Below, piece after piece: positions 7,663 through 63,505 of a stretch of DNA of 64,000 nt. How positions within the stretch are numbered: position 1 is the stretch's first letter; each line of letters opens with the position of its first letter. The position numbers and the translations under genes are program-made. Origin of the DNA: Actinomucor elegans. Lineage: Eukaryota > Mucoromycota > Mucoromycetes > Mucorales > Mucoraceae. The stretch lies in assembly GCA_026027325.1 (NCBI GenBank), contig JAMSLZ010000013.1, forward strand, positions 206,501-270,500. Reading direction: 5' to 3'. A model generated the notes under the pieces. That model ran no database searches, was not told the origin of the DNA, and saw only the letters and a program-made list of their open reading frames with translations.

Positions 7663-8544
7663 TTAATCTGTCAAAAACTTTTTCCATAAATTATATTCCC
7701 TATTTTTTTTCCTCCATTGATATTCTTTTAAAAACAATAATATATCTTTTTTGTTTCTATGTCTGGGTATTATACTCTGTTTTAATCCATTCCAAGTACC
7801 TTCAATAGTATTAGTATGTACACCTGTTATTGGATCTTTAAAATTTTTGGAATGATTTACAGTCATATGTTTATATCCTATATTCTTTAAATTATTGTAT
7901 CCTTTCCATAAATCTGTATATATTGTGGTTCCTTTTTTTACATATTTTTTAATAATTAAATCTATATTATCAATATTTCTTTCTTTAATAGGGACAAAAA
8001 AAGTTTTTTTATTTTCGTTTTTTATTTTATTTTTTAACATACTTCTTTCTACACCTCCAATAATCCATGCACCTTCTACTCTATGACCTCTATTATATTT
8101 TCTTTTAGCTATTTTACTTTCATCTACTTCTACAATTTTATTTCTACCCCCAATTTTAATATTTCTATTACTTAATAATTGCTTATTTTTTAAATGTTTT
8201 CTAAATAATTTATTATAAGATGACACAGTATTCTTTGATATTCCTAATGTTGATGCAGTAAATGAACATGGCACTTTTCCAAGAAAATAATATAGTATAT
8301 GTAATTGTATATTTAATGATAATGTTAATTTATTAAATATTGTACCTTTTAAAGGTGATATAGCTTTTCTACATTTATAAAATCTGCAAACATATAATTT
8401 TTTATTTATATTTAATTTAATATCATGGTTACATTTTAAACACTTTTCATAATGGTTAACATAGTTGTTTTCAATTAAATACAATAGTGCTTCCTTCTCA
8501 TCATCAAATATTTTTTTCAAAGATTTGTATGGTTCTATAAACAT
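7663..8544 (-). CDS. Merlin/IS1595-type DDE transposase
   Basis: A 293-aa intronless transposase. The N-terminal zinc ribbon has Cys pairs at about 35/38 and 53/58. A helix-turn-helix-like stretch around residues 95-120 (STLGISKNTVSSYNK) follows. The RNase-H-like catalytic core has D141 in VEVDESK, D211 in IYTDLWKGY and E248 in HTNTIEGTWN. The arrangement DES-K..NRGH...TD.W.GY...NHS.NF...HTN.IEG matches the IS1595/ISXO2 family, whose eukaryotic branch is Merlin. It would cut and paste its own GG-ended element. The frame is complete and undamaged, so the element may be recently active. Codon use is extremely AT-biased compared with the LINE around it, which hints at a foreign or AT-rich source. 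Confidence 0.88.
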   Translation of the reverse strand: MFIEPYKSLKKIFDDEKEALLYLIENNYVNHYEKCLKCNHDIKLNINKKLYVCRFYKCRKAISPLKGTIFNKLTLSLNIQLHILYYFLGKVPCSFTASTLGISKNTVSSYNKLFRKHLKNKQLLSNRNIKIGGRNKIVEVDESKIAKRKYNRGHRVEGAWIIGGVERSMLKNKIKNENKKTFFVPIKERNIDNIDLIIKKYVKKGTTIYTDLWKGYNNLKNIGYKHMTVNHSKNFKDPITGVHTNTIEGTWNGLKQSIIPRHRNKKDILLFLKEYQWRKKNREYNLWKKFLTD

Positions 8545-43533: not shown

Positions 43534-44616
43534 TTATTTCGTTTTTTTTGTATTTTTCTTAGAGCGTGGTTTACGCTTATTGGAATCCGCTTCTTTGGAA
43601 CGATTGTCAGATCCAGCCTCCTCATCTTCACCAACGTCAGGTTGAACCGTAATGGCTTTTCTTTTCGTTGATGAGCGAGCAGAATGTAGATCCAACAAGC
43701 TAGCAATTGGAGATGCAAGACCAACTGGAGCAACAGAAGTAGCTAGACGATCAACAAGGATATGCTGATTATCCACACTATTTGCATAACAAGCATATTA
43801 ATAAAGATATAAAAACAGAAATAAAAAAGCATCTAACCTGAAGAACGATTCAATCTCATTGTCTTCAACAGATTCTTGATTTTGTTGACTTTCACCTTCT
43901 TCAGCAGAATTACTTCTGGTACGTACAGTCTTCTTGTTTTTGAGTGCTTCAGATAAAAGTAACTTGGCAGCCCACATCTCTACACAGAGATGCAGATGCA
44001 AGCCCACATCTAAAGCACGTTTCTCTAAAAGCAAAGCATAACGTTCTTGAATGCTGGTATCCTCTTCGCCAATTTCACTCCAAGTTTTACCAACAATATT
44101 TATATTTGCCCTTTCCATGTCTTTCAAGACATCTCTTGCCAAGTATTTCAACGTATTGTATTGCGGTTGAACATCATCATCGGTCAGTTCATTTTGTTGG
44201 CCTTTTATATACTTGAGGTGTTTCAAGAGGGCATATAACCTTAATGGTGCAGAAGGGGTGACATTTGTCTTGGTTGCCTTTTGTTGATAACGCACTTTTG
44301 CTTCTTCTAGCACTTTTGGGATTGACCGTTTACTACGTAAATTAGGATTCAAAGCATTTGCAATTGCTTCTCGTTCAGCTATATATGACAAGCTAAGAGG
44401 TTAATAAAACTGAATGTAGTAACATGCTTCAGATATGATTGTACCATCGTCAAGTGCTTGTTCAATTTCTTCGTTAGATGAAACCCTCGAAGCTTCTCGA
44501 GGAAATAGAGGTGCTAATATTTGGATCAAATCTTGAATTAAACGACGGTTGATTAAGATTTCTTGTTCAATCTTCTCAAAGTAGACGCTCCAATTATTGT
44601 TGTTGTTGTTTGACAT
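43534..44616 (-). CDS. CACTA accessory gene, three exons, function unknown
   Basis: Exons 44616-44424, 44378-43838 and 43777-43534 join to 978 nt (325 aa). Introns are 45 and 60 nt with GTTACT and GTTAGA donors and TAG acceptors. The protein has an Asn run at the N-terminus, helical Glu/Lys-rich stretches at about 10-45 and 75-200, an acidic Gln/Ser/Glu segment at about 215-240, and a very basic end (KRKPRSKKNTKKTK), a likely nuclear and DNA-binding tail. No known domain is recognised. CACTA elements often carry a second gene whose product binds subterminal repeats, and this gene's position and divergent orientation fit that role, but it is inference. The same gene is present intact in copy 2. 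Confidence 0.72.
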
Positions 44617-45021
44617 AGCTATAAAGTAAATATATTATAAAGAAAAGTGATTGAATGATTTGAGCTATTTAACTGTTTTATAAGCGTACTTTACCATTTA
44701 TCCATTAGTAATCCTTACTAATGTCCAAAGAGCTTTCTGGAAAGTAAGCTTACTGACAGGTATGACTGACTTGGAAAGGAATTAGCTTGATTAGAAATCA
44801 TAAGGATCCATTAAAATGTATTCGATATCTGAATAATCTGGAAGGCTGAGTAATATGAAAAGCTGATTAGTTCAAAGGATTCAACAGCCTAAAACAATGA
44901 ATTACCATTGAGAACTCTGTCAATTGTAGACCAAGCAAACGTATTTAAGACCTGCTTTTTCTAAACAACAAAACCGCTATTCATTAATTCGATATATTTA
45001 CTTGTTTTTACTTATCTTTAA
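44617..45021. promoter_or_regulatory. Divergent promoter region of CACTA copy 1
   Basis: 405 bases between the start codons of the two oppositely oriented CACTA genes. A TATTTAAG stretch (about 44942-44949) lies about 75 bases upstream of the transposase ATG. No other signal was recognised. Confidence 0.5.
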
Positions 45022-47994
45022 ATGGGCAAAGTTTCCTCTTCTGCTACACCATATAAATATACTTGCGCTACTTGTTTGAGGCCATTCAAAACTGTTAAAG
45101 CTAGGAGTAATCACTATAGCCATAATCGTGATCATAGAAAACAAAGGGTCGTCCAAACGCAAGAAGCTAGCATTCCTGTCCAAGGTGAGTTAACAGATAT
45201 ATTACTAAAGCTTTTAATTTAACAATATACCTTGTTTGAAATAGAGCCTACTCCAATTGCTTACAACGTCAAATCCTCGGATCAAAACCTTTTCACCAAT
45301 ACGGAATTAAATAGCATCCAATTGAGAGATATTTGCGACACGTATGGTATTCCTCGAGAGGCTCAAAGAGAACTTGTCTATCTAATGCGTACCATAATCA
45401 AAAACAATGAAGAGAGCCGTAAAACCGATGGATTGGGTATGTATCTATTCAAATAGAGTTAAAAAAAAAGTACTTATCAGCTTTTATTCCCATTATATAT
45501 AGGTTACCTACCATCCACTCTCATGTTCCCTGATACCTTGGATCGTACTCTTAAAGCAAAAACCAATATTCAATGTCATTTTCATGATGTCTGCGTCAAT
45601 GGTTGCATGCTGTTTGAAAAGGAAGATATAGAGACTATTCAATGTAAAAACCCTGCTTGTAAAGAAAATCGCTTTGATGATCATGGTAAACCTCGTCGCT
45701 CTATGAAGATGCTTCCTATTGGTGAACAAGTCGCTCAAATGCTTGCGAATGCAAAGACAAGAGACTTGATGAAATACCGCTACAACTATAAATCAACTGA
45801 CGGTGAATATAAAGATTACTTTGATGGTGCAGCATACAAGTACTTTAAGGATAATAGCATTCTGTTTTCCGGTGAAGATGATGTCGCAATGGTTCTTTTT
45901 GTCGATGGTTTCTGTACTAGCAAGAATCATAAAGGGGACAAGTTAACAATCATCCATCTCTTGAATATGAACATTCCCCCAGAATACCGCTACCAAGACG
46001 AATACATGCTTCAATTGGCGATCTTGCCAGGTCCAAACTACCCAAAGTACATGCATACCTTTTTAAAGCCTATTATTGATGAGTTTCATGCTCTGTCTAC
46101 CAAAGGCATGCTTGTACAAAAGGATGGTGTAATTGTTTGTCAAGCTAAAGTCAACTTGGTGATGGCTACTGGTGATCTTCCTGCTGCAGCTGAGCTTGCA
46201 AATCATATTGGTCATATGGCTACGTTTGGTTGCCGTATTTGTCGTGTCCAAGCTGAACGTCATGATTATCATAATTGTTTTTTAACGATCGACAATGAGA
46301 TCAGAAGCAGAAACGATTTCATTTCCCCAGATGCAGCGAATGTAAGTACTATAATCAGCATTAATCTTTACAAGTTTTTAACATTTCTTTTTCTTTTTAC
46401 CTCATAGAGCTACAGTATCAAGTCTGCAACACCATTTGCAATACTTCCCAGTTTTACTGGCGCTACTTTTTTTGGTTTAGACGAAATGCATCTTCTCGGA
46501 CAAGGTATCGCTCAACACGTATTCAATATGCTGACAGTCGACATGGGTAAAGAGTACAATGCAGCAAGAAAAACTCGATATAAGCCCAATGAAGATGAAT
46601 TGAGTGATGCCCGATTGAAGTCTGCTGATGAATGGCCGTATACTTTCTATATTCCAAAATTATCGCTCATCAAAATTGGTAAACTTGTTGAAGCTTCTAG
46701 AGCCACTGTACCGACATCCTTTTCATCCAAATGGGAAGATCCAATTATCAAGAGTGGTGGCAAACGTGCTGTTGACTGGATTGATATTTTCTTATATATG
46801 ATTCCCACCTTGTTCGTTCCTGAATTGATTCAAGAATCCGCTAAGAAACCATTGATTCATCTGACAAAAGCTGTCGCATTGGCTCTTAAATGGGAACTTT
46901 CTATTGAAGACCTTATTCTGATGGAAAGGTAAATATATTTTTTTTGTACTCATAAATCTAGTTTACTTACATACTTTCCAAAGATATATCAAAGAATGGC
47001 AAGAATTTTTGTTGGCAGAAATCAAGGCAAAGCGTATTCATTCCGGTGTATTCAAGCCTGTTCAACACTACCTTTCGCATATAGTCTATATGATCAAACA
47101 ACAAGGTGTGTTGAGAGCATATTCCGCCCGATCAATGGAAAGAAGCATCGGAAAATACAAAAAGCTCATCAAGTCAAAGGTTGATGCTGGCGCAAACGCT
47201 GGTAATATCTTGGAAAGACTCATAACGCGTAATCATATAAACAGCCAGACTTGGGATGTTCATACTGAGCTTGACCTGATCACTCCTCGAAAATACAGCG
47301 AATCCACTTTCAGGAATAACCCTTCTGGTGATGCTAGTGATCCACAATTATGGGCTCCCTTTAGTAATATTTCAGTGGATACTCTTCCCTTTGGTGTCTC
47401 CACTCAAACTTTTTTGAAGGCGCTATTGCATTACTATCGCCGTACTGAAGCAAATGGTGTAAATATTGCTGAAATTGATTCGTTGAATAGTATTTCCATC
47501 GCTGGTCGTGCCTGGGCATATGGCAATGTATATACGTCTACCATGTATAAAAGCCATATAAATGAATATCGTCGAGGAAACAATTACGTGATGATCACTG
47601 CCAGCTACTTGAAGTAAGTAATTAGCTCAAGAACAAAAACCTCTTTGATTAACCAACCTTTGTTAATAGTCGAAATAATTCCATTCGTGAAAGCTGGTTC
47701 ATTGGTTCTATCGTTTTCTTTTTCGAGCATTCATTCAATGGTAGACCACAGTATTTGGCTTTGGTTGATTTAGCGAAAAAGAATGCAACTACCAAATATG
47801 ACAAGACTATTGCTTTGGTTGAGCTGCACAGTAGCGGTGCACACAGTTACGCTGTCTGTCGGTTTGAAGATATTGTTGCCAGTGTAGGTCTTGTGCGTTC
47901 AAGTGAATCTAATGAGAAAGAGTTCAAGATCATCTCTCATCATATATTTAAACAAGATCTAGAGCAAAATGCTGGCATATTAAGTCGTTTGTAA
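45022..47994 (+). CDS. CACTA tnp2-type transposase, six exons
   Basis: Exons 45022-45184, 45245-45436, 45503-46341, 46408-46928, 46984-47613 and 47670-47994 join to 2,670 nt (889 aa). All junctions keep frame with GT-AG introns of 55-66 nt. A C2H2-like finger (C15, C18, H31 and H34 or H38) opens the protein. A Cys ribbon (CVNGC and CKNPAC) lies at about 149-171. The tnp2 core has D253 (VLFVDGF), ILPGPNYPKYMHTFLKPIIDE, D343 (ATGDLPAAAEL), the CRIC pair at 362-365, DEMHLLGQG (D423), and E624 in YSARSMERSIGKYK as a likely acidic partner. Family knowledge: cut-and-paste transposase of CACTA elements, including fungal Plavaka-like lineages. The gene looks intact. Copy 2 has a frameshift. Confidence 0.88.
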
Positions 47995-51541: not shown

Positions 51542-51612
51542 GGGTTTTTTGTCGCTGGTTTCGTATTCGTATTCTACTCGTCGCTGCGCTTCTGGTGGTA
51601 TAATTATTTTTG

Positions 51613-51666
51613 CACATCTCCAACTTTTTGCACATCTCCAACTTTTTGCACATCTCCAACTTTTTG
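51613..51666 (+). repeat. Triplicated 18-bp unit in LINE J leader
   Basis: CACATCTCCAACTTTTTG occurs three times in tandem. Other leaders have one unit. Eighteen is a multiple of three, so the open frame upstream of ORF1 is kept, giving repeated HISNFL. Confidence 0.9.
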
Positions 51667-51759
51667 CACATTTCGCTCGATCTTGACATCTCAATTCGCC
51701 AATTTCGACATCTTAAAAACTTTTTCTCACAATCTCGCCAATTTCAAGAAATCTGGCAC

Positions 51760-53226
51760 ATGACTGAAAATTCTGCCGTGTCCTGGACGACTGTTGTTGC
51801 CCGTGGTGCCTCCAAGAAGGTTCCATTGACTCCTGGTCGGCGTAATGTCGACAATGCTGCTGTTCCTCTTATTGGTGAGGTCATCTTTGAAGATGATGAC
51901 CTCAAGTCCGAACTTTTGGTGCGCAAAGCCGCTGCTCTGGTGGAGCAGGCGCTTTGCTCAAGTTCTGTTCTGTTCTCCTTCCCTGGGAAGCTGTTTGGTG
52001 ACCGCACTGGTGCCTATAAGGTCATAGAAGAACAAATTGGTACTAATGTGGATTTTAGACACATTAGTTCCATGCGCGCTAATGCTGGTGGTGACCTTCT
52101 TGTTGAAGCCAATTTTGACGCTAAGGATGATGCTACCAAGGCCGTTAATGATGGTGTTGTTGTCAATGGTGTGGTGTACAAGGCCGTATCGACTTCTGCT
52201 GCTTCTGGCTCTGGCTCTTCTGTGGGTAGTAATCTGACCCATGTTCAGTTTAATTTGGTATGTTGTACTCCGAACAGAGCTACCTTTTTGGTGGACATGT
52301 TGGATTCTTTGGCCTTCTATGGTAAGGTATACCAGTTGAAGAAGTATACCCACAAAGGCTATTTCGAGGGCAAGATGTCGGTGCTCATTGATACGTCGGT
52401 AGGCATGGAAGGTGAGGATGGTGAGGTGGTTCCTCCTCAGCCTTTGACAAGAATGCTGTACCTGAGTGCTTGGGACATGTTTGCCCCTGCCCAGTTCAAG
52501 AATGCGCCCCCTGTTTGTCACTTTTGTCGTTTGTCAGGACATGTTCGTAAGGACTGTCCTGAGTTGGCTAAGCGTACGTGTTTCTCTTGTCGCGAGAAAG
52601 GCCATACGGCTAGGTTCTGCAAGGTCAAGAAGCAAGCAGTGAAGTCTTTCGAGGCTGAACTGGACGATTATGTGGCTTTGTCTGGTGCAAAGAAATCTGG
52701 CCTTGACCCTACGCCAAAAGATGATGTTGTAGTTGTTGAAGAGGCTCCTATTGAACTGGTTGAGCAGGAGGGCGATTCTGAGCCCTTGGTTGGTGTCTCT
52801 GGTGGTATCTCTGGTGTCTCTGGTGTTGCCTCTGGTGTTGCTGGTGGTGTCTCTGGTGTCTCTGGTGTTGCCTCTGGTGTTGCTGGTGGTGTCTCTGGTG
52901 GTGTTCCTGGTGATGACTCAATCATTGAAGTCATGGAGCTCGATGGTGAGGGTGATCCTCTGCTCTCTGGCGAGAGAGTAGAGTACGATCCCAACAGTCC
53001 TACTGGTGCTCGAGCTTCCAAGTTTGCTGACTACGAGGTTGCTTCAACTATGAAGGTTGATACGGTGCAAGAGATGATGGATTTAAGCAAAGTCAAGGTC
53101 AAAACTCAAAACAAGATTGACTTTCTTAAAAAGAACATTGTGAATGTGGCGAAGACCAAGGCTTCTGCTTCTGCTATCAAGACGTCCAAGTCTTCCAAGT
53201 CTTCTTCTTCTGCCCATAGGGTATAA
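51760..53226 (+). CDS. LINE copy J ORF1: CCHC RNA-binding protein
   Basis: A 488-aa ORF1 close to copy G. Knuckles CHFCRLSGHVRKDC and CFSCREKGHTARFC, the GVSGVSGVASGVAGG repeat region and the basic tail are all present. The ATG at 51760 is chosen by agreement with all copies. The frame is also open 50 codons further upstream to an ATG at 51610, through the 18-bp repeats, so an N-terminally extended form is possible but less likely. It ends GTATAATG, overlapping the ORF2 start. Confidence 0.9.
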   Translation: MTENSAVSWTTVVARGASKKVPLTPGRRNVDNAAVPLIGEVIFEDDDLKSELLVRKAAALVEQALCSSSVLFSFPGKLFGDRTGAYKVIEEQIGTNVDFRHISSMRANAGGDLLVEANFDAKDDATKAVNDGVVVNGVVYKAVSTSAASGSGSSVGSNLTHVQFNLVCCTPNRATFLVDMLDSLAFYGKVYQLKKYTHKGYFEGKMSVLIDTSVGMEGEDGEVVPPQPLTRMLYLSAWDMFAPAQFKNAPPVCHFCRLSGHVRKDCPELAKRTCFSCREKGHTARFCKVKKQAVKSFEAELDDYVALSGAKKSGLDPTPKDDVVVVEEAPIELVEQEGDSEPLVGVSGGISGVSGVASGVAGGVSGVSGVASGVAGGVSGGVPGDDSIIEVMELDGEGDPLLSGERVEYDPNSPTGARASKFADYEVASTMKVDTVQEMMDLSKVKVKTQNKIDFLKKNIVNVAKTKASASAIKTSKSSKSSSSAHRV

Positions 53227-53883
53227 TGCTAGGTCAAAGCATTCGATTGGGTTCCTTAAATGTGCGTAGCATTTTTATGGAGTCCCAAAAAACAACACAA
53301 AAGGAGTTCGCTTCTTACCTACGCGCTCGTTCTCTTGGTGTGGATATCCTTTGCTTGCAAGAGGTATCTCACTTCTATTCTCAATCTTCTCTCACTGATC
53401 ATCAAATCCGCTCTTTCTCTTTCTTCTTTCCTCGCTGTCCCTTTGTGGTGTCCAAACATTGTGCCATTGTCTGCCTCAAGCCTGGTCTTTCTTTGGATGC
53501 TACTCAAGTTCTCCTGGATGAGCGTTGTGTTGTGGCTACTGTCAAGGATGCCCAGCATAATGTCTTGTGTCGTGTGGCCAATATCTATGCACCGGCACAG
53601 TCTTCGGACCGTCCACTGTTTATACAATCTTTTCTCTCTCTTGCTTTGTGGTCTGAGGTGTCCAACACGCCTTGGATGTTGGTAGGTGACTTCAACATTC
53701 ATCTGCACTCTTCTGCCGAGACAAGTCTTTCCTCTGTGGCTCCGCTGTATGATTGGCTTCGTCTCCACTTTAACAACTGTTTCCCGGACGGTCCTATTAC
53801 TTTTCCTAGGGCTGGTACTACTATTGATTATATCTTTGGTCATACTTCGCTGGTGACTCGGTTGGTGAATGGTCAAGTCCATT

Positions 53884-54104
53884 GAAGAACATTTAGTATT
53901 ACAGAAATATGTTCAAAATAGTACAATATATAAAAAAATTAGGAAATAATAGATTTTTTTGAATACAAATAATAATATAAATAAATTTTATTCTAAAATA
54001 GAACAAGTAACCAACATTTTATTTATGGATAAAAAGGCAACATTATATTTATGCCTTGATTTTTTAGGAAAGTTAAAAATATTAAGTAGTTGTAAATGTT
54101 TATC
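53884..54104 (+). repeat. Left 221-bp direct terminal repeat
   Basis: Identical by eye to 56167-56387. It contains a frame from 54024 that continues past the repeat to 54237 and ends in a Thr/Ser/Trp pattern (KTTSLASNSWHD) faintly like Merlin-type zinc ribbons. That resemblance is weak. Confidence 0.9.
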
Positions 54105-54259
54105 TTGTCCTATTTTTAGACTTCCATTGCGTTTAATCACATTGAGAAATCTAAAAACAACTTCCTTGGCATCTAATTCTTGGCATGATATTTTGGAAAA
54201 TATAAAAGTATCTATAATATTTGAGAATTATTTTTAAAATAACATCAATATTATATTTA

Positions 54260-54628
54260 ATGGAAAAAATCTATTATTATGCTGTGGTTTTAACTCTAAA
54301 TCCTGAAAAAAAAGATGTCAAGAATAAATCATCCGAAATATTAAACAAGAAAATACTGCAATGGGTTGGAAATATAAAAAATATTGATAAAATTTTATAT
54401 AGTGGTCCTTTCTATGATGTTGGTGAAAACAATACAAATATCCATGCCAATTTAGTGATAAAAACAATTTTAGATGATAACGAAAAAGTTAGAAATGAAT
54501 ATTTCAAATCCTGGTGTTTAAGAAAAGGATATGTTAGTATTAAAGAAATTTATAATTTTAAATCATGGTTAGATTATGCAAAAAGAAATCATAAGTTCTT
54601 GGAAAATATAGAAAATATTAAAAATTGA
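54260..54628 (+). CDS. Small protein, possible Rep/HUH-like domain
   Basis: A 122-aa intronless protein with an ATG at 54260. It begins with a hydrophobic strand (YYYAVVLTLNPEKK). A Gly-containing stretch (SGPFYDVGENNTNIHANLVIK) follows, with one His in a strand-like setting. It ends SIKEIYNFKSWLDYAKRNHK. The order TLNP, h-H-x-x-L and Y-x-x-K is like motifs I, II and III of Rep-type HUH endonucleases, with Tyr of DYAK as the possible nucleophile. This is pattern recognition only, and the usual two His are not both present. PIF/Harbinger elements have a second, Myb-like gene, but no Myb repeat is visible here. It may alternatively be an unrelated DNA-binding helper. Confidence 0.5.
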   Translation: MEKIYYYAVVLTLNPEKKDVKNKSSEILNKKILQWVGNIKNIDKILYSGPFYDVGENNTNIHANLVIKTILDDNEKVRNEYFKSWCLRKGYVSIKEIYNFKSWLDYAKRNHKFLENIENIKN

Positions 54629-54718
54629 ATTTTCATATATAAATAAAAGTTTATTAAATATAGAAAATATTAAAAATTGAATTTCTCTTTATATAAAAAT
54701 ACATCATTTTATTTGTTT

Positions 54719-56155
54719 ATGAACACTCATATAGACTTATTAATTGAAAATGAATACAGAAATATTTACAATAGGTATTGGAAATTTATGAAAAATGAAT
54801 ATATATATAAAGTTGAATTGAAATATCATAGATCTAAAATAACGAGTATACCAAATATTGATAGAATTAAAAAAAATATATATATTAAATTAGGAAGTAT
54901 TGCTCCATTTGTATTTTTGACAGATTTATGTAACAATATAAAACTACCAGGTCCATATATAACAGCAGATAAAGTATTGATATTATTAGAACATTTATTA
55001 AATGGAAAATCTATAAATGAAATGGAAATGTATATTCCATCTACTAGTTTTTATAAATTATATCAATCATTATATATAAATAATTATGATTTATTGGAAA
55101 AATGGATAAATAATAAATTAGAAAAATGTTTTTCTACACATACATTGAGATTACTTTGTGCTAAGAAATTTAATCCAATGATGTTAGATAATGTAACATT
55201 ACTAATTGATGGTCACCATAATCGTATAACATATCAAGATATTAATCTAGATAAAAAAGAGTTATTCTCGTATAAATTAAAAAGAAATGGATTAAATACA
55301 CAATTTATTATAGATATTAATAGAATATGTGTTTATATATCTGATTCCTTACCTTGTAGAAATAATACTGATGATAAAATGCTTTTAGACATAAATATCA
55401 ATAAGTTTTATAATGAAATAGATTGTATATGTTTTGATGGATTATATGAAAACACAGTAAAAGAATTTATAGAAAAATTTAGTAATATTGGATTTAATAT
55501 ATCCTTGAAAAATTTTTGCTATCCTATAAAAAAAGATAAAGGAGTTGAATTAACCATAGATGAAAAAAAATTCAATGAAGAATTAGGTGGATTAAGGTCA
55601 AAAATAGAAAAATATTTTGCAGAATTAGGTAGTATTTTTAAAAGATTTAGTGGACAAAATAAGATTAGAATAACAGATAATAAGACATATAATATACAGC
55701 TAAAATTAGCAATAGTATTACTGAACATAAAATATTTTACAGAGTTATTTGGAATTGAAGAAAATGCCCATTACAACAAATGGCTAAATGATAATTTTGA
55801 TTATTATTATAAAAATAATATTGAAATGAATAAAGAAGTAACATTAAAAACACAATATAAAATAGAAAATATCGTTGATATAAAATCATTACAAAATCAA
55901 TTTTTAAATAATTTAAATATAAATGAAGTGAATATAGATATTATGGATCAAATGGAGGAAGATATCACTAGTAATAATGATCAAAATATATATGAAATAC
56001 AATATATAATTAAACACAAAAAAGTAAAGAACTTATATGAATATTTTGTAAAATGGAAAAAGTATGGTAAAGAACATAATTCATGGGTAAAAGAAAAAGA
56101 TTTTACATCACATGATACTATTTTGAATTATTGGAAATCAATAGAAAATAATTAA
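54719..56155 (+). CDS. DDE transposase with C-terminal chromodomain
   Basis: A 478-aa protein starting at the ATG at 54719 (the frame is open a little upstream but has no earlier ATG). The catalytic domain shows D164 in TLLIDGHHNRI, D240 in CICFDGLYENT, and E297 in NEELGGLRSKIEKYFAELG, the R..IE..F..LG pattern typical of DDE_4 (HARBI1-like) transposases. The last 55 residues form a chromodomain: YEIQYIIKHK, EYFVKWKKYGKEHNSW, and a helix TILNYWKSIE. The three aromatic cage positions (Y of YEIQ, W of VKW, Y of KKYG) are kept, so binding to methylated histone tails is plausible. Codon use is extremely AT-rich. The frame is intact, so recent activity is possible. Confidence 0.8.
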   Translation: MNTHIDLLIENEYRNIYNRYWKFMKNEYIYKVELKYHRSKITSIPNIDRIKKNIYIKLGSIAPFVFLTDLCNNIKLPGPYITADKVLILLEHLLNGKSINEMEMYIPSTSFYKLYQSLYINNYDLLEKWINNKLEKCFSTHTLRLLCAKKFNPMMLDNVTLLIDGHHNRITYQDINLDKKELFSYKLKRNGLNTQFIIDINRICVYISDSLPCRNNTDDKMLLDININKFYNEIDCICFDGLYENTVKEFIEKFSNIGFNISLKNFCYPIKKDKGVELTIDEKKFNEELGGLRSKIEKYFAELGSIFKRFSGQNKIRITDNKTYNIQLKLAIVLLNIKYFTELFGIEENAHYNKWLNDNFDYYYKNNIEMNKEVTLKTQYKIENIVDIKSLQNQFLNNLNINEVNIDIMDQMEEDITSNNDQNIYEIQYIIKHKKVKNLYEYFVKWKKYGKEHNSWVKEKDFTSHDTILNYWKSIENN

Positions 56156-56166
56156 TCAATTAATAA

Positions 56167-56387
56167 GAAGAACATTTAGTATTACAGAAATATGTTCAAA
56201 ATAGTACAATATATAAAAAAATTAGGAAATAATAGATTTTTTTGAATACAAATAATAATATAAATAAATTTTATTCTAAAATAGAACAAGTAACCAACAT
56301 TTTATTTATGGATAAAAAGGCAACATTATATTTATGCCTTGATTTTTTAGGAAAGTTAAAAATATTAAGTAGTTGTAAATGTTTATC
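56167..56387 (+). repeat. Right 221-bp direct terminal repeat
   Basis: The second copy of the terminal repeat, beginning 11 bases after the DDE-chromodomain stop and ending at the ATT duplication, after which LINE J ORF2 resumes. Confidence 0.9.
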
Positions 56388-57019
56388 ATTATGTTCCTGG
56401 TGTGTGGACCGATCACTGTCTTCTGACAATCGATCTGCAGCCTGCTTGTGCTCGTATTGGTCCTGGCTGTTGGCGCTTTAATCCCACTCTGCTGGAGGAT
56501 TCAGAGTTTCTCCTATTGCTGGACAAGACGGTGTCTCTCTTTTTCGAATCTTCTGGTGGTGATGGTGACAATGCTAGCTCTGGTGGTAAGGGTGAACCTT
56601 TGAGGGTCCAATCTCAATGGGAATCTTTCAAGTTGTTGCTCAAGTGCTGTGCGCAAAAGTACGCTTGGGGTGCTAAGGCTCGATTCAAGAACAAGGTTGC
56701 TGCTTTACAACAGGAACGTATGAAGGCTGTTTCCTCTTCTGTCTCAGGTATTATGGCTAGTGATGCTATACCGTCAATTCAACCTAGTGATGATTCACTT
56801 CCTCTTCAGGTGGTGCATGAGCTAGAGAAATTGATTGATGGTCAGATTCAGAAAGAAACACGCCAGAATATGCTTCGCTCTGCCACGCGTTGGCATGAAC
56901 TGGGTGAACGTAACAACAAGTATTTCTATCGTGTCATCAAGGATCGCCAGTCTCAACAGACAATCCAGTCCTTGAAGTGCTCTACTACTGGTGAGGTCTT
57001 GGTGGAAGCGGCTGATATA

Positions 57020-57742
57020 CAGTGGGTGAAAAAACTGTTCACGTGTTTTGTATTTTTACATATTTTTATAGGGCTTTCGACCCCAAATGGATATACGGCT
57101 ATGAAAAACTATCATTAGAATGCTTAAGTAAAGTGCTATCATGCCAATATATTCATTGATATGTCAGGGTAATACAGAATGTTACACAGCTGATTGAATA
57201 TAGGGCATACACGTGAACAGTTTTTTCCTCACCGGCGCCAAACGTAATATAACATAACAATGGTGCTGTAAATCCATTATTGTTGATCCGAAATGATCCG
57301 AATATACCAAGCAATGATATAAGGTACTGTAAAGTATAAAAGAACCAATATTCGTTCGGTTATATGTTATTTTTCAGGCCTTACAACTATACTCTTCATT
57401 ATACATCAGATATGACTCATTCTCTATCTATCGACACCCAAATGGACATGAAAGCTCTTCTTATTAAAGGAACACCCTACTCAGTGATTGCAAAAAGGTT
57501 TGGCGTCTCTGCTGGAGTTGTATCTAAGTACAACAAGAGATGGTTCCCAGATGGTCAACGTGCTACTGGTGGTAGACCCGCTATTGTGGACGATACAAGC
57601 AAGGCTTTAGTTAGACGGAAGATACTATTTGGTAGGCTTTTGACAGCCCAAGATGCCTACAAAGAGTTTTTGTCACTTGGTTACTATTTGTCATACAAAA
57701 CAGCCACAAATATTTTGAGATCAATGGGATTCCATGCAGTAA
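57020..57742 (+). mobile_element. Tc1/mariner-like element, truncated by CACTA copy 2
   Basis: Inserted after TA in ORF2 of LINE J (57018-57019). It starts CAGTGGGTGAAAAAACTGTT, and an inverted, imperfect copy of this 26-bp end lies inside at 57210-57235. The transposase N-terminus follows. The element is cut at 57742 by the CACTA terminus, and its other end would lie beyond the CACTA copy, outside the window. Confidence 0.75.
57412..57742 (+). pseudogene. Tc1/mariner-like transposase, N-terminal part
   Basis: About 110 residues from the ATG at 57412. A first helix-turn-helix (ALLIKGTPYSVIAKRF, then SAGVVSKYNKRW) is followed by a GGRPAI hinge and a second helix-turn-helix region (LTAQDAYKEFLSLGYYLSYKT, ATNILRSMGFHAV). 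This paired arrangement is typical of Tc1-type DNA-binding domains. The catalytic DDE/D part is absent because CACTA copy 2 begins at 57743. The frame then stops at 57840 in foreign sequence. The remainder of the gene may lie on the far side of the CACTA element. Confidence 0.8.
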
Positions 57743-59045: not shown

Positions 59046-60128
59046 TTATTTCGTTTTTTTTGTATTTTTCTTAGAGCGTGGTTTACGCTTATTGGAATCC
59101 GCTTCTTTGGAACGATTGTCAGATCCAGCCTCCTCATCTTCACCAACGTCAGGTTGAACCGTAATGGCTTTTCTTTTCGTTGATGAGCGAGCAGAATGTA
59201 GATCCAACAAGCTAGCAATTGGAGATGCAAGACCAACTGGAGCAACAGAAGTAGCTAGACGATCAACAAGGATATGCTGATTATCCACACTATTTGCATA
59301 ACAAGCATATTAATAAAGATATAAAAACAGAAATAAAAAAGCATCTAACCTGAAGAACGATTCAATCTCATTGTCTTCAACAGATTCTTGATTTTGTTGA
59401 CTTTCACCTTCTTCAGCAGAATTACTTCTGGTACGTACAGTCTTCTTGTTTTTGAGTGCTTCAGATAAAAGTAACTTGGCAGCCCACATCTCTACACAGA
59501 GATGCAGATGCAAGCCCACATCTAAAGCACGTTTCTCTAAAAGCAAAGCATAACGTTCTTGAATGCTGGTATCCTCTTCGCCAATTTCACTCCAAGTTTT
59601 ACCAACAATATTTATATTTGCCCTTTCCATGTCTTTCAAGACATCTCTTGCCAAGTATTTCAACGTATTGTATTGCGGTTGAACATCATCATCGGTCAGT
59701 TCATTTTGTTGGCCTTTTATATACTTGAGGTGTTTCAAGAGGGCATATAACCTTAATGGTGCAGAAGGGGTGACATTTGTCTTGGTTGCCTTTTGTTGAT
59801 AACGCACTTTTGCTTCTTCTAGCACTTTTGGGATTGACCGTTTACTACGTAAATTAGGATTCAAAGCATTTGCAATTGCTTCTCGTTCAGCTATATATGA
59901 CAAGCTAAGAGGTTAATAAAACTGAATGTAGTAACATGCTTCAGATATGATTGTACCATCGTCAAGTGCTTGTTCAATTTCTTCGTTAGATGAAACCCTC
60001 GAAGCTTCTCGAGGAAATAGAGGTGCTAATATTTGGATCAAATCTTGAATTAAACGACGGTTGATTAAGATTTCTTGTTCAATCTTCTCAAAGTAGACGC
60101 TCCAATTATTGTTGTTGTTGTTTGACAT
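59046..60128 (-). CDS. CACTA accessory gene, copy 2, three exons
   Basis: Exons 60128-59936, 59890-59350 and 59289-59046, giving the same 325-aa protein as 43534-44616: N-terminal Asn run, helical charged middle, acidic Gln/Ser segment and a basic nuclear-type tail. No difference from copy 1 was noticed. Its preservation in both copies supports a real gene. It diverges from the transposase gene across a 405-bp region (60129-60533). Confidence 0.7.
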
Positions 60129-60533
60129 AGCTATAAAGTAAATATATTATAAAGAAAAGTGATTGAATGATTTGAGCTATTTAACTGTTTTATAAGCGTA
60201 CTTTACCATTTATCCATTAGTAATCCTTACTAATGTCCAAAGAGCTTTCTGGAAAGTAAGCTTACTGACAGGTATGACTGACTTGGAAAGGAATTAGCTT
60301 GATTAGAAATCATAAGGATCCATTAAAATGTATTCGATATCTGAATAATCTGGAAGGCTGAGTAATATGAAAAGCTGATTAGTTCAAAGGATTCAACAGC
60401 CTAAAACAATGAATTACCATTGAGAACTCTGTCAATTGTAGACCAAGCAAACGTATTTAAGACCTGCTTTTTCTAAACAACAAAACCGCTATTCATTAAT
60501 TCGATATATTTACTTGTTTTTACTTATCTTTAA
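60129..60533. promoter_or_regulatory. Divergent promoter region of CACTA copy 2
   Basis: Corresponds to 44617-45021 and includes the TATTTAAG stretch before the transposase gene. Confidence 0.5.
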
Positions 60534-63505
60534 ATGGGCAAAGTTTCCTCTTCTGCTACACCATATAAATATACTTGCGCTACTTGTTTGAGGCCATTCA
60601 AAACTGTTAAAGCTAGGAGTAATCACTATAGCCATAATCGTGATCATAGAAAACAAAGGGTCGTCCAAACGCAAGAAGCTAGCATTCCTGTCCAAGGTGA
60701 GTTAACAGATATATTACTAAAGCTTTTAATTTAACAATATACCTTGTTTGAAATAGAGCCTACTCCAATTGCTTACAACGTCAAATCCTCGGATCAAAAC
60801 CTTTTCACCAATACGGAATTAAATAGCATCCAATTGAGAGATATTTGCGACACGTATGGTATTCCTCGAGAGGCTCAAAGAGAACTTGTCTATCTAATGC
60901 GTACCATAATCAAAAACAATGAAGAGAGCCGTAAAACCGATGGATTGGGTATGTATCTATTCAAATAGAGTTAAAAAAAAAGTACTTATCAGCTTTTATT
61001 CCCATTATATATAGGTTACCTACCATCCACTCTCATGTTCCCTGATACCTTGGATCGTACTCTTAAAGCAAAAACCAATATTCAATGTCATTTTCATGAT
61101 GTCTGCGTCAATGGTTGCATGCTGTTTGAAAAGGAAGATATAGAGACTATTCAATGTAAAAACCCTGCTTGTAAAGAAAATCGCTTTGATGATCATGGTA
61201 AACCTCGTCGCTCTATGAAGATGCTTCCTATTGGTGAACAAGTCGCTCAAATGCTTGCGAATGCAAAGACAAGAGACTTGATGAAATACCGCTACAACTA
61301 TAAATCAACTGACGGTGAATATAAAGATTACTTTGATGGTGCAGCATACAAGTACTTTAAGGATAATAGCATTCTGTTTTCCGGTGAAGATGATGTCGCA
61401 ATGGTTCTTTTTGTCGATGGTTTCTGTACTAGCAAGAATCATAAAGGGGACAAGTTAACAATCATCCATCTCTTGAATATGAACATTCCCCCAGAATACC
61501 GCTACCAAGACGAATACATGCTTCAATTGGCGATCTTGCCAGGTCCAAACTACCCAAAGTACATGCATACCTTTTTAAAGCCTATTATTGATGAGTTTCA
61601 TGCTCTGTCTACCAAAGGCATGCTTGTACAAAAGGATGGTGTAATTGTTTGTCAAGCTAAAGTCAACTTGGTGATGGCTACTGGTGATCTTCCTGCTGCA
61701 GCTGAGCTTGCAAATCATATTGGTCATATGGCTACGTTTGGTTGCCGTATTTGTCGTGTCCAAGCTGAACGTCATGATTATCATAATTGTTTTTTAACGA
61801 TCGACAATGAGATCAGAAGCAGAAACGATTTCATTTCCCCAGATGCAGCGAATGTAAGTACTATAATCAGCATTAATCTTTACAAGTTTTTAACATTTCT
61901 TTTTCTTTTTACCTCATAGAGCTACAGTATCAAGTCTGCAACACCATTTGCAATACTTCCCAGTTTTACTGGCGCTACTTTTTTGGTTTAGACGAAATGC
62001 ATCTTCTCGGACAAGGTATCGCTCAACACGTATTCAATATGCTGACAGTCGACATGGGTAAAGAGTACAATGCAGCAAGAAAAACTCGATATAAGCCCAA
62101 TGAAGATGAATTGAGTGATGCCCGATTGAAGTCTGCTGATGAATGGCCGTATACTTTCTATATTCCAAAATTATCGCTCATCAAAATTGGTAAACTTGTT
62201 GAAGCTTCTAGAGCCACTGTACCGACATCCTTTTCATCCAAATGGGAAGATCCAATTATCAAGAGTGGTGGCAAACGTGCTGTTGACTGGATTGATATTT
62301 TCTTATATATGATTCCCACCTTGTTCGTTCCTGAATTGATTCAAGAATCCGCTAAGAAACCATTGATTCATCTGACAAAAGCTGTCGCATTGGCTCTTAA
62401 ATGGGAACTTTCTATTGAAGACCTTATTCTGATGGAAAGGTAAATATATTTTTTTTGTACTCATAAATCTAGTTTACTTACATACTTTCCAAAGATATAT
62501 CAAAGAATGGCAAGAATTTTTGTTGGCAGAAATCAAGGCAAAGCGTATTCATTCCGGTGTATTCAAGCCTGTTCAACACTACCTTTCGCATATAGTCTAT
62601 ATGATCAAACAACAAGGTGTGTTGAGAGCATATTCCGCCCGATCAATGGAAAGAAGCATCGGAAAATACAAAAAGCTCATCAAGTCAAAGGTTGATGCTG
62701 GCGCAAACGCTGGTAATATCTTGGAAAGACTCATAACGCGTAATCATATAAACAGCCAGACTTGGGATGTTCATACTGAGCTTGACCTGATCACTCCTCG
62801 AAAATACAGCGAATCCACTTTCAGGAATAACCCTTCTGGTGATGCTAGTGATCCACAATTATGGGCTCCCTTTAGTAATATTTCAGTGGATACTCTTCCC
62901 TTTGGTGTCTCCACTCAAACTTTTTTGAAGGCGCTATTGCATTACTATCGCCGTACTGAAGCAAATGGTGTAAATATTGCTGAAATTGATTCGTTGAATA
63001 GTATTTCCATCGCTGGTCGTGCCTGGGCATATGGCAATGTATATACGTCTACCATGTATAAAAGCCATATAAATGAATATCGTCGAGGAAACAATTACGT
63101 GATGATCACTGCCAGCTACTTGAAGTAAGTAATTAGCTCAAGAACAAAAACCTCTTTGATTAACCAACCTTTGTTAATAGTCGAAATAATTCCATTCGTG
63201 AAAGCTGGTTCATTGGTTCTATCGTTTTCTTTTTCGAGCATTCATTCAATGGTAGACCACAGTATTTGGCTTTGGTTGATTTAGCGAAAAAGAATGCAAC
63301 TACCAAATATGACAAGACTATTGCTTTGGTTGAGCTGCACAGTAGCGGTGCACACAGTTACGCTGTCTGTCGGTTTGAAGATATTGTTGCCAGTGTAGGT
63401 CTTGTGCGTTCAAGTGAATCTAATGAGAAAGAGTTCAAGATCATCTCTCATCATATATTTAAACAAGATCTAGAGCAAAATGCTGGCATATTAAGTCGTT
63501 TGTAA
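60534..63505 (+). pseudogene. CACTA tnp2-type transposase, copy 2, frameshifted
   Basis: Same six-exon structure as copy 1: 60534-60696, 60757-60948, 61015-61853, 61920-62439, 62495-63124 and 63181-63505. A T-run in exon 4 (about 61979-61984) has six T instead of seven, so the frame shifts just before GLDEMHLLGQG. D253 and D343 would be made, but D423 and E624 would be lost. All other sequence seen equals copy 1. The change sits in a homopolymer, so a sequencing or assembly error cannot be excluded. If the shift is real, this copy would depend on transposase from copy 1. Confidence 0.78.

Follow-up and report, generated by a model that had tools for sequence, protein, structure and literature searches.

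Long terminal direct repeats (LTDRs) on either side of the internal part (INT) of a DNA transposon were described in KolobokP, a group of animal elements whose LTDRs were presented as unlike anything in other DNA transposons (Kojima and Bao 2022; PMC9587614). As far as the accessible portion of that paper goes, KolobokP elements are built as LTDR-INT-LTDR with inverted ends on each LTDR, also occur as solo LTDRs and multimers, generate short target-site duplications and encode, inside INT, a DDE transposase of the Kolobok superfamily. Their LTDRs are given there as about 450 or 660 bp long, INT ends devoid of an LTDR occur in some of the families, and for KolobokP-4N1 of Corbicula 46 copies minus one LTDR are tabulated (PMC9587614, Table 3). 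KolobokP is furthermore associated with a His-Me finger nuclease, missing from some families, and the same text carries the authors' proposal that a homing-type nuclease helps to maintain the LTDR structure (PMC9587614).

Two further groups invite comparison. The PHIS transposons (PIF/Harbinger, ISL2EU, Spy, Pangu and Nuwa) have short AT-rich duplications and short inverted ends, according to the accessible text of PMC4482050 and PMC12730594. Chromoviral (Ty3/Gypsy) elements combine long direct repeats with an integrase that ends in a chromodomain and belongs to another catalytic family than the enzyme considered here. In the accessible text of the open-access literature, which leaves aside most subscription journals and the reports of Repbase, KolobokP was the only DNA transposon encountered with long direct repeats, and the same literature (including PMC4482050, PMC12730594, PMC10799480 and PMC12477816) yielded no chromodomain on a PHIS transposase and no LTDR on a PHIS element. 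In PMC4482050 no word starts with "chromo", and the single such word of PMC12730594 is not presented as a domain in the accessible text. An LTR-like element with a transposase domain is mentioned for Mucor lusitanicus in the part of PMC11943222 that is accessible; there it is classed by its reverse transcriptase, and it is therefore taken here for another element. How, then, does the fungal locus described below compare with these systems?

The element and its target site

Within the window, by which the whole 64,000-nucleotide stretch of Actinomucor elegans DNA that was analysed is meant, positions 53884-56387 are occupied by an element consisting of a 221-bp LTDR, an INT of 2062 bp and a second, identical LTDR, inserted into a LINE-type retrotransposon:

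51610-53883 (+), LINE-type retrotransposon split by the insertion, with its ORF1 and the beginning of its ORF2; open frames, empty-site pattern
53881-53883 (no strand), left target-site duplication ATT; empty site in five LINE paralogues
53884-54104 (+), left LTDR, 221 bp; repeat comparison, genome copies
53884-53896 (+), outer left end GAAGAACATTTAG, which in inverted orientation imperfectly matches the outer right end (the latter's reverse complement being GATAAACATTTAC)
54260-54628 (+), ORF1, 122 aa, possibly HUH/Rep-like (low confidence); homologues and predicted structure
54719-56155 (+), ORF2, transposase of 478 aa; Pfam, alignment, predicted structure
55205-55726 (+), DDE_Tnp_4 domain with candidate catalytic residues D164, D240 and E297; Pfam, alignment, fold
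55991-56137 (+), chromodomain with cage candidates Y425, W446 and Y449; Pfam, alignment, fold
56167-56387 (+), right LTDR, 221 bp, same as left; repeat comparison, genome copies
56375-56387 (+), outer right end; inverted match to the outer left end
56388-56390 (no strand), right target-site duplication ATT; empty site in LINE paralogues
56388-57118 (+), rest of the interrupted LINE ORF2; open frames, empty-site pattern

The left and right LTDRs (221 nt each) are 100% identical, which bears out what had been read from the sequence alone. That reading had put the flanking duplication at 3 or 4 bp; it is the 3-bp ATT. A 39-bp pattern composed of both flanks and a single ATT, i.e. the empty site, has precisely five occurrences among the window's other LINE copies, against none expected. 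Imperfect short inverted ends are present on each LTDR, and the outer ends of the element match over about 8-13 bp. Only a single protein, that of ORF2, had been recognized; the conserved ORF1 had been overlooked, as had the inverted ends on the LTDRs and, in the rest of the genome, solos and a dimer.

Copies in the genome

A scan of 36.5 Mb in 27 contigs with the first 28 bases of the LTDR, allowing up to three mismatches and leaving copies without this start uncounted, returned at least 98 LTDRs, 97 of them exact over these bases and one with a single mismatch. Compared with the window LTDR over the full length, 84 of the 98 are identical, 12 carry substitutions or single-base indels, and two are truncated to 35 and 37 bp. 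They fall into 58 loci: 38 elements of the form LTDR-INT-LTDR, one dimer (LTDR-INT-LTDR-INT-LTDR), 17 solos (the 35- and 37-bp ones included), one left-only and one right-only copy. Three of the 38 elements are 8.7-11 kb long, reflecting further insertions or, at C12:3681537, possibly a rearrangement. The same LTDRs, which the sequence-only reading had proposed to look for elsewhere, are mostly accompanied by a 3-bp duplication at their outer flanks: an exact one is present at 34 of the 38 elements, at the dimer and at 13 of the 17 solos, and absent from four elements and four solos. In two of these four elements, inspection by eye reveals flanks that agree over 4 bp, namely TATT at C8:46935 and TATA, which lies in simple sequence, at C12:3695200. 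In at least two pairs of loci, C5:24143 with C9:581672 and C22:698086 with C22:705463, both flanks are the same; each pair therefore represents duplicates of one insertion, and independent events are fewer than loci.

Two regions are peculiar in themselves. At C12:3674047-3697702, three neighbouring LTDR elements have single left or right flanks in common but combined in exchanged fashion, a pattern such as ectopic recombination or segmental duplication would leave. The dimer (C22:9969-14753), flanked by AGT on both sides, has stops in one of its two transposase genes, and two of its three LTDRs lack one and the same base of an A run.

Of 35 elements shorter than 3 kb, 27 including that of the window are readable as a whole. 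Among the other 26, 21 match the window copy without any substitution and five differ from it by one or two; seven show one or two gap columns. Among the matches listed in a transposase search of the genome are 26 full-length, stop-free copies of the gene, the window's included. Judging by these identical copies and intact genes, the burst of the window family is very recent, so that the upkeep of identical direct repeats in a DNA transposon is open to direct test.

All 41 left and all 41 right ends of INT (located with patterns of 28 and 30 bases, up to three mismatches) adjoin an LTDR; none of the 82 was found without one. The inner junctions between LTDR and INT are constant, the outer flanks vary between elements, and the duplication lies at the outer flanks, not the inner ones; the unit therefore probably inserts as a whole. 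The 13 solos with a duplication bear six substitutions, all of them private, compared with two in the 81 LTDRs residing in elements. Expressed as copies with any substitution, and with indels left out, this amounts to 4 of 13 against 2 of 81 (Fisher p 0.003). Solos may thus be seen as older products of recombination between LTDRs, which fits their divergence better than a proliferating short transposon would, and the dimer fits what unequal exchange would produce.

The transposase and its chromodomain

ORF2 matches two Pfam families above their cut-offs, DDE_Tnp_4 (E 1.9e-8) and Chromo (E 8.7e-8), the former being the sole transposase family matched at E<=1. In an alignment of the window protein with 54 of 70 database homologues, D164, D240 and E297 as well as W446 of the chromodomain are invariant, and Y449 is nearly so. 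The predicted structure has a core of the RNase-H-like kind, and its chromodomain superposes on HP1 with an rmsd of 1.2 A over 52 residues; Y425, W446 and Y449 presumably form its aromatic cage, the roles of these residues being carried over from HP1. The profile search and the structure prediction, both of which had been suggested as checks on the sequence-only reading, thus agree with the genome copies in upholding its central claim of a DDE_4-type enzyme with a well-formed C-terminal chromodomain between LTR-like direct repeats.

The relatives of ORF2 that carry a species name come down to two incomplete proteins of Mucor flavus (64% and 55% identity, half of the query covered). Among these homologues and those of the sister family described below, the named hosts are Mucor, Rhizomucor, Cunninghamella, Apophysomyces, Lichtheimia, Lobosporangium, Mortierella and kin; the viral contigs searched contained no relative of ORF2 or ORF1. 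Many homologues of either protein lie on contigs of about 1.7-2.6 kb, roughly the size of one LTDR plus INT, which could be repeats collapsed in assembly or real circles.

Eight families with one plan and a sister with inverted repeats

Relatives of the transposase in the same genome are, among the matches listed, 65, 59, 51, 49, 47, 43 and 35% identical to it. Nine of their loci, one or two per further family and all from this one genome, were read, and eight of them, representing seven families with transposases 43-65% identical to that of the window, are bounded by long direct terminal repeats:

L069, LTDR pair of 402/399 bp; L076, of the same family, 401/400 bp
L070, LTDR of 261 bp
L071, LTDR of 220 bp
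L072, LTDR of 239 bp
L073, LTDR of 223 bp
L074, LTDR of about 292 bp
L077, LTDR pair of 260/259 bp

The two LTDRs of a pair differ by 0-1 substitutions and 0-3 gap columns. Between families, their similarity stays within that of 60 shuffles, save for a slight excess of L077 over L069, L076 and L073 and a tie between L071 and L076. The pairs have thus been kept near-identical while the transposases fell to 43-65% identity. The LTDRs of the further families have short inverted ends that start with GA (in L074 by eye), and the elements are 2.1-2.8 kb long and flanked by a duplication of 3 bp in L070-L074, L076 and L077 and, by eye, of 4 bp (AATA) in L069. Besides the transposase, they contain no frame of at least 70 aa other than those that run antisense to the transposase gene, have been split from it or lie at an edge, so that a second gene is undetected in seven of the eight LTDR families. 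Eight families sharing the same plan in one genome make it a lineage-wide architecture, not a matter of chance.

The most distant of these relatives (L075; C12:3671855 to about 3676765), here called the sister, is itself interrupted by an LTDR element. Its transposase, 35% identical to ORF2 and the same protein as P0083, carries both Pfam domains (DDE_Tnp_4 and Chromo), and ATT stands on both sides of its C3 copy as it does at the window element. In contrast to the latter, the sister has no LTDR and is bounded by inverted terminal repeats of about 426 bp, with like boundaries in L009, L025, L043, L048 and L069; its C12 copy has no matching duplication (ATT versus AGT). The inverted repeats are 99% identical over 211 bp, so that upkeep of this kind is not special to direct repeats. 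Each contains a 282-bp unit with 67-bp inverted arms (positions 256-537 of L075, C12:3671855-3672136), and a 212-bp part of the repeat has 40 genome matches scored, from among 119 candidates.

A quick IQ-TREE tree of 63 rows, midpoint-rooted and limited to the lineages of the window and the sister, was built from the eight LTDR families, 23 of the 70 ORF2 homologues, the sister and 31 of its 120 listed homologues (213 in all). A branch with 99% SH-aLRT support separates the rows from the ORF2 search, all eight LTDR families among them, from those of the sister search, the sister included. The eight families are spread across their group, even its outermost row being one of them (L074, on a long branch and of unsure place). 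A Pfam chromodomain is present in 64 of the 70 ORF2 homologues and in 71 of the 120 listed homologues of the sister transposase. Because the sister with its inverted repeats and many of its relatives carry one, the chromodomain is independent of the direct repeats; most simply, it would be older than the LTDRs. The sequence-only reading, which had called the pairing of chromodomain and direct repeats unusual, needs correction on two points: the repeats have a precedent in KolobokP, and the chromodomain is not tied to them.

Relation to known systems

By enzyme, ends and duplication length, the element would go with PHIS: it possesses the D, D and E of a DDE_Tnp_4-type domain, a Pfam family that we take to be linked to PHIS, a 3-bp duplication (0, 2 or 3 bp in PHIS) and terminal inverted repeats. 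The partner gene of ISL2EU is YqaJ. That of Nuwa encodes Myb/SANT (PMC12730594/PMC4482050), as opposed to none or ORF1 here, and the LTDRs and chromodomain likewise set the element apart from PHIS as portrayed in the accessible parts of these two papers. In its workings it would resemble KolobokP and, in formal terms, a composite transposon that has its transposase gene in the interior. It is nevertheless not filed as KolobokP, because its enzyme is of another family, ORF1 and ORF2 match no His-Me finger nuclease in Pfam, and INT ends without LTDR were not found, although some KolobokP families likewise do without the nuclease according to the text available (PMC9587614). Moreover, the host is a fungus and not an animal, the LTDRs measure 220-402 bp, shorter than those reported for KolobokP, and the KolobokP paper does not mention the chromodomain present here (PMC9587614).

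To judge from sequence, the element seems to be another instance, independently arisen, of an architecture otherwise known to us only from descriptions of certain animal transposons. A second LTDR lineage with another transposase family, and with seven of eight families lacking a detected second gene, suggests that the architecture is convergent and that the nuclease proposed to maintain KolobokP is not required. Elements of this kind can also be mistaken for LTR retrotransposons in annotation. Could DNA transposons then have evolved an LTR-like, self-renewing form at least twice, independently, the repeats being regenerated here from one copy in each or most cycles (via a one-LTDR circle or templated repair) by a transposase that suffices alone, while a histone-reading domain steers insertion? 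In this full form the idea is speculative and rather doubtful.

How the repeats may be kept alike

Most likely, the element is a DNA transposon of the PHIS type that is mobilized through its outer ends, while recombination or a circular intermediate would keep its two LTDRs identical. The transposase would bring together the 5' terminus of the left LTDR and the 3' terminus of the right LTDR and integrate the complete unit at a cut staggered by 3 bp; solos and dimers would arise where LTDRs recombine, and gene conversion or passage through a one-LTDR circle would uphold LTDR identity. ORF1 may be an accessory protein of the window's sub-clade, on which the LTDR plan does not depend.

The main competitor of this outer-end mechanism is borrowed from bacterial composite transposons: each LTDR would be an independently mobile short transposon, the solos its transposed copies, and the unit would move only if two LTDRs chance to be used together. 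Every LTDR does bear its own short inverted ends, 13 of 17 solos are flanked by a 3-bp duplication, and signs of excision of single LTDRs are reported for KolobokP in the text available (PMC9587614). However, not one of 82 INT ends was found without an LTDR, the six solo substitutions are all private, so that no solo lineage is seen, and the greater divergence of the duplication-flanked solos is what old recombination products should show; taken together, this makes the composite scenario improbable. Somewhat less probable again is that ORF1 acts as an HUH/Rep nickase that cuts in the LTDR, with rolling-circle or gap-repair copying renewing the pair from one copy in each cycle. ORF1 has 12 database homologues (46-99% identity; 11 aligned), and its model (mean pLDDT 83) runs beta-alpha-beta-beta-alpha-beta-alpha, which we take to be the order expected of HUH domains. 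The invariant T12 (end of strand 1), H62 (strand 3) and Y106/K108 (last helix) are in our view reminiscent of motifs I-III of Rep-type HUH nucleases, even if the Tyr-Lys spacing departs from what we take to be the usual one. The 50 viral fold matches listed include 14 named proteins, four of which are Rep proteins or initiators of replication (ranks 15, 17, 35 and 39), and IS200/ISHp608 chains occur among the weak PDB fold matches. Against this, eight of the 14 are uncharacterized, the two viral fold matches at E<=0.001 are both nameless, the best PDB folds are other ferredoxin-like proteins, and no sequence match exceeds a curated cut-off or has a convincing E-value (Pfam, 0.0076 and 0.018; PDB sequences, 0.29; PHROGs, 0.0061 to a family of unknown function). 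ORF1 is hence a possible HUH/Rep-like protein at low confidence. By tblastn, the loci of the other families gave no genuine match (the best, in L070 at E 0.003, coincides with the end of the transposase gene, and all others have E >0.02); being found in one of eight LTDR families, ORF1 cannot explain the architecture and is ruled out as the cause of the LTDRs.

An origin from an LTR retrotransposon, or from an LTR element that captured a transposase, would account for direct repeats, solos and a short duplication, and a C-terminal chromodomain is also found on chromoviral integrases (accessible text of PMC10799480). Yet the window element has no reverse transcriptase according to Pfam, its relatives have no open frame of at least 70 aa able to hold one, the ends read GA..TC and not TG..CA, and the enzyme is a DDE_Tnp_4 transposase whose sister is framed by long inverted repeats. 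With these observations, the junctions and eight families of one plan, the LTR reading is rejected as very unlikely. The least credible account, with next to no probability left, is that a short element landed by chance, in tandem or nested, on both sides of a transposase gene, the outcome by which the sequence-only reading would have had itself overturned. Nothing speaks for it but the LTDR's own inverted ends, and it is refuted by the other genome copies, in which inner junctions are constant while outer flanks differ and carry the duplication, and by the recurrence of the plan in eight families.

Chromodomain and genomic surroundings

In the proposed mechanism, the chromodomain would tether the transposition complex to methylated histone H3. 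Is insertion then guided by chromatin, as the place of the element in a cluster of transposable elements had suggested to the sequence-only reading? Distances to 34 of 37 LINE rows (34 of 354 candidates scored; three LINE fragments left out by hand) were taken from the LTDR loci and, as a control, from the best 77 of 134 matches of a DDE_Tnp_IS1595 transposon (lower-scoring rows left out by hand), both sets of positions being lower bounds. Ten of the 58 LTDR loci have a LINE copy at no more than 50 kb, an enrichment over random positions (500 draws averaged 1.58 and reached 6 at most), and so do 14 of 77 control copies. At 20 kb the control leads (12 of 77 versus 3 of 58), and within 100 kb the numbers are 10 for LTDR loci and 16 for the control. 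By these lower-bound LINE distances, LTDR loci show no excess over the control transposon, and they cluster strongly with it, 37 of the 58 lying within 50 kb of a control copy (random mean 6.35). The proposal of chromatin-guided insertion thus goes unsupported, and heterochromatin targeting was set aside as LTDR loci are no closer to LINEs than the control is; accumulation where insertions are tolerated explains the clustering as well as targeting does.

The control transposon itself is represented in the window at 7663-8544 (DDE_Tnp_IS1595 transposase, E 1.7e-17), its 134 genome matches lying at several identity levels. Near-identical LINE arrays with an intact ORF2 of about 1350 aa run in both orientations through the window (1-64000) and look like the pericentric Grem-LINE1 arrays of Mucor in the accessible text of PMC7377519. 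The window also holds two copies of a Transposase_21 element (43798-47617 and 59310-63128), whose listed open frames look identical.
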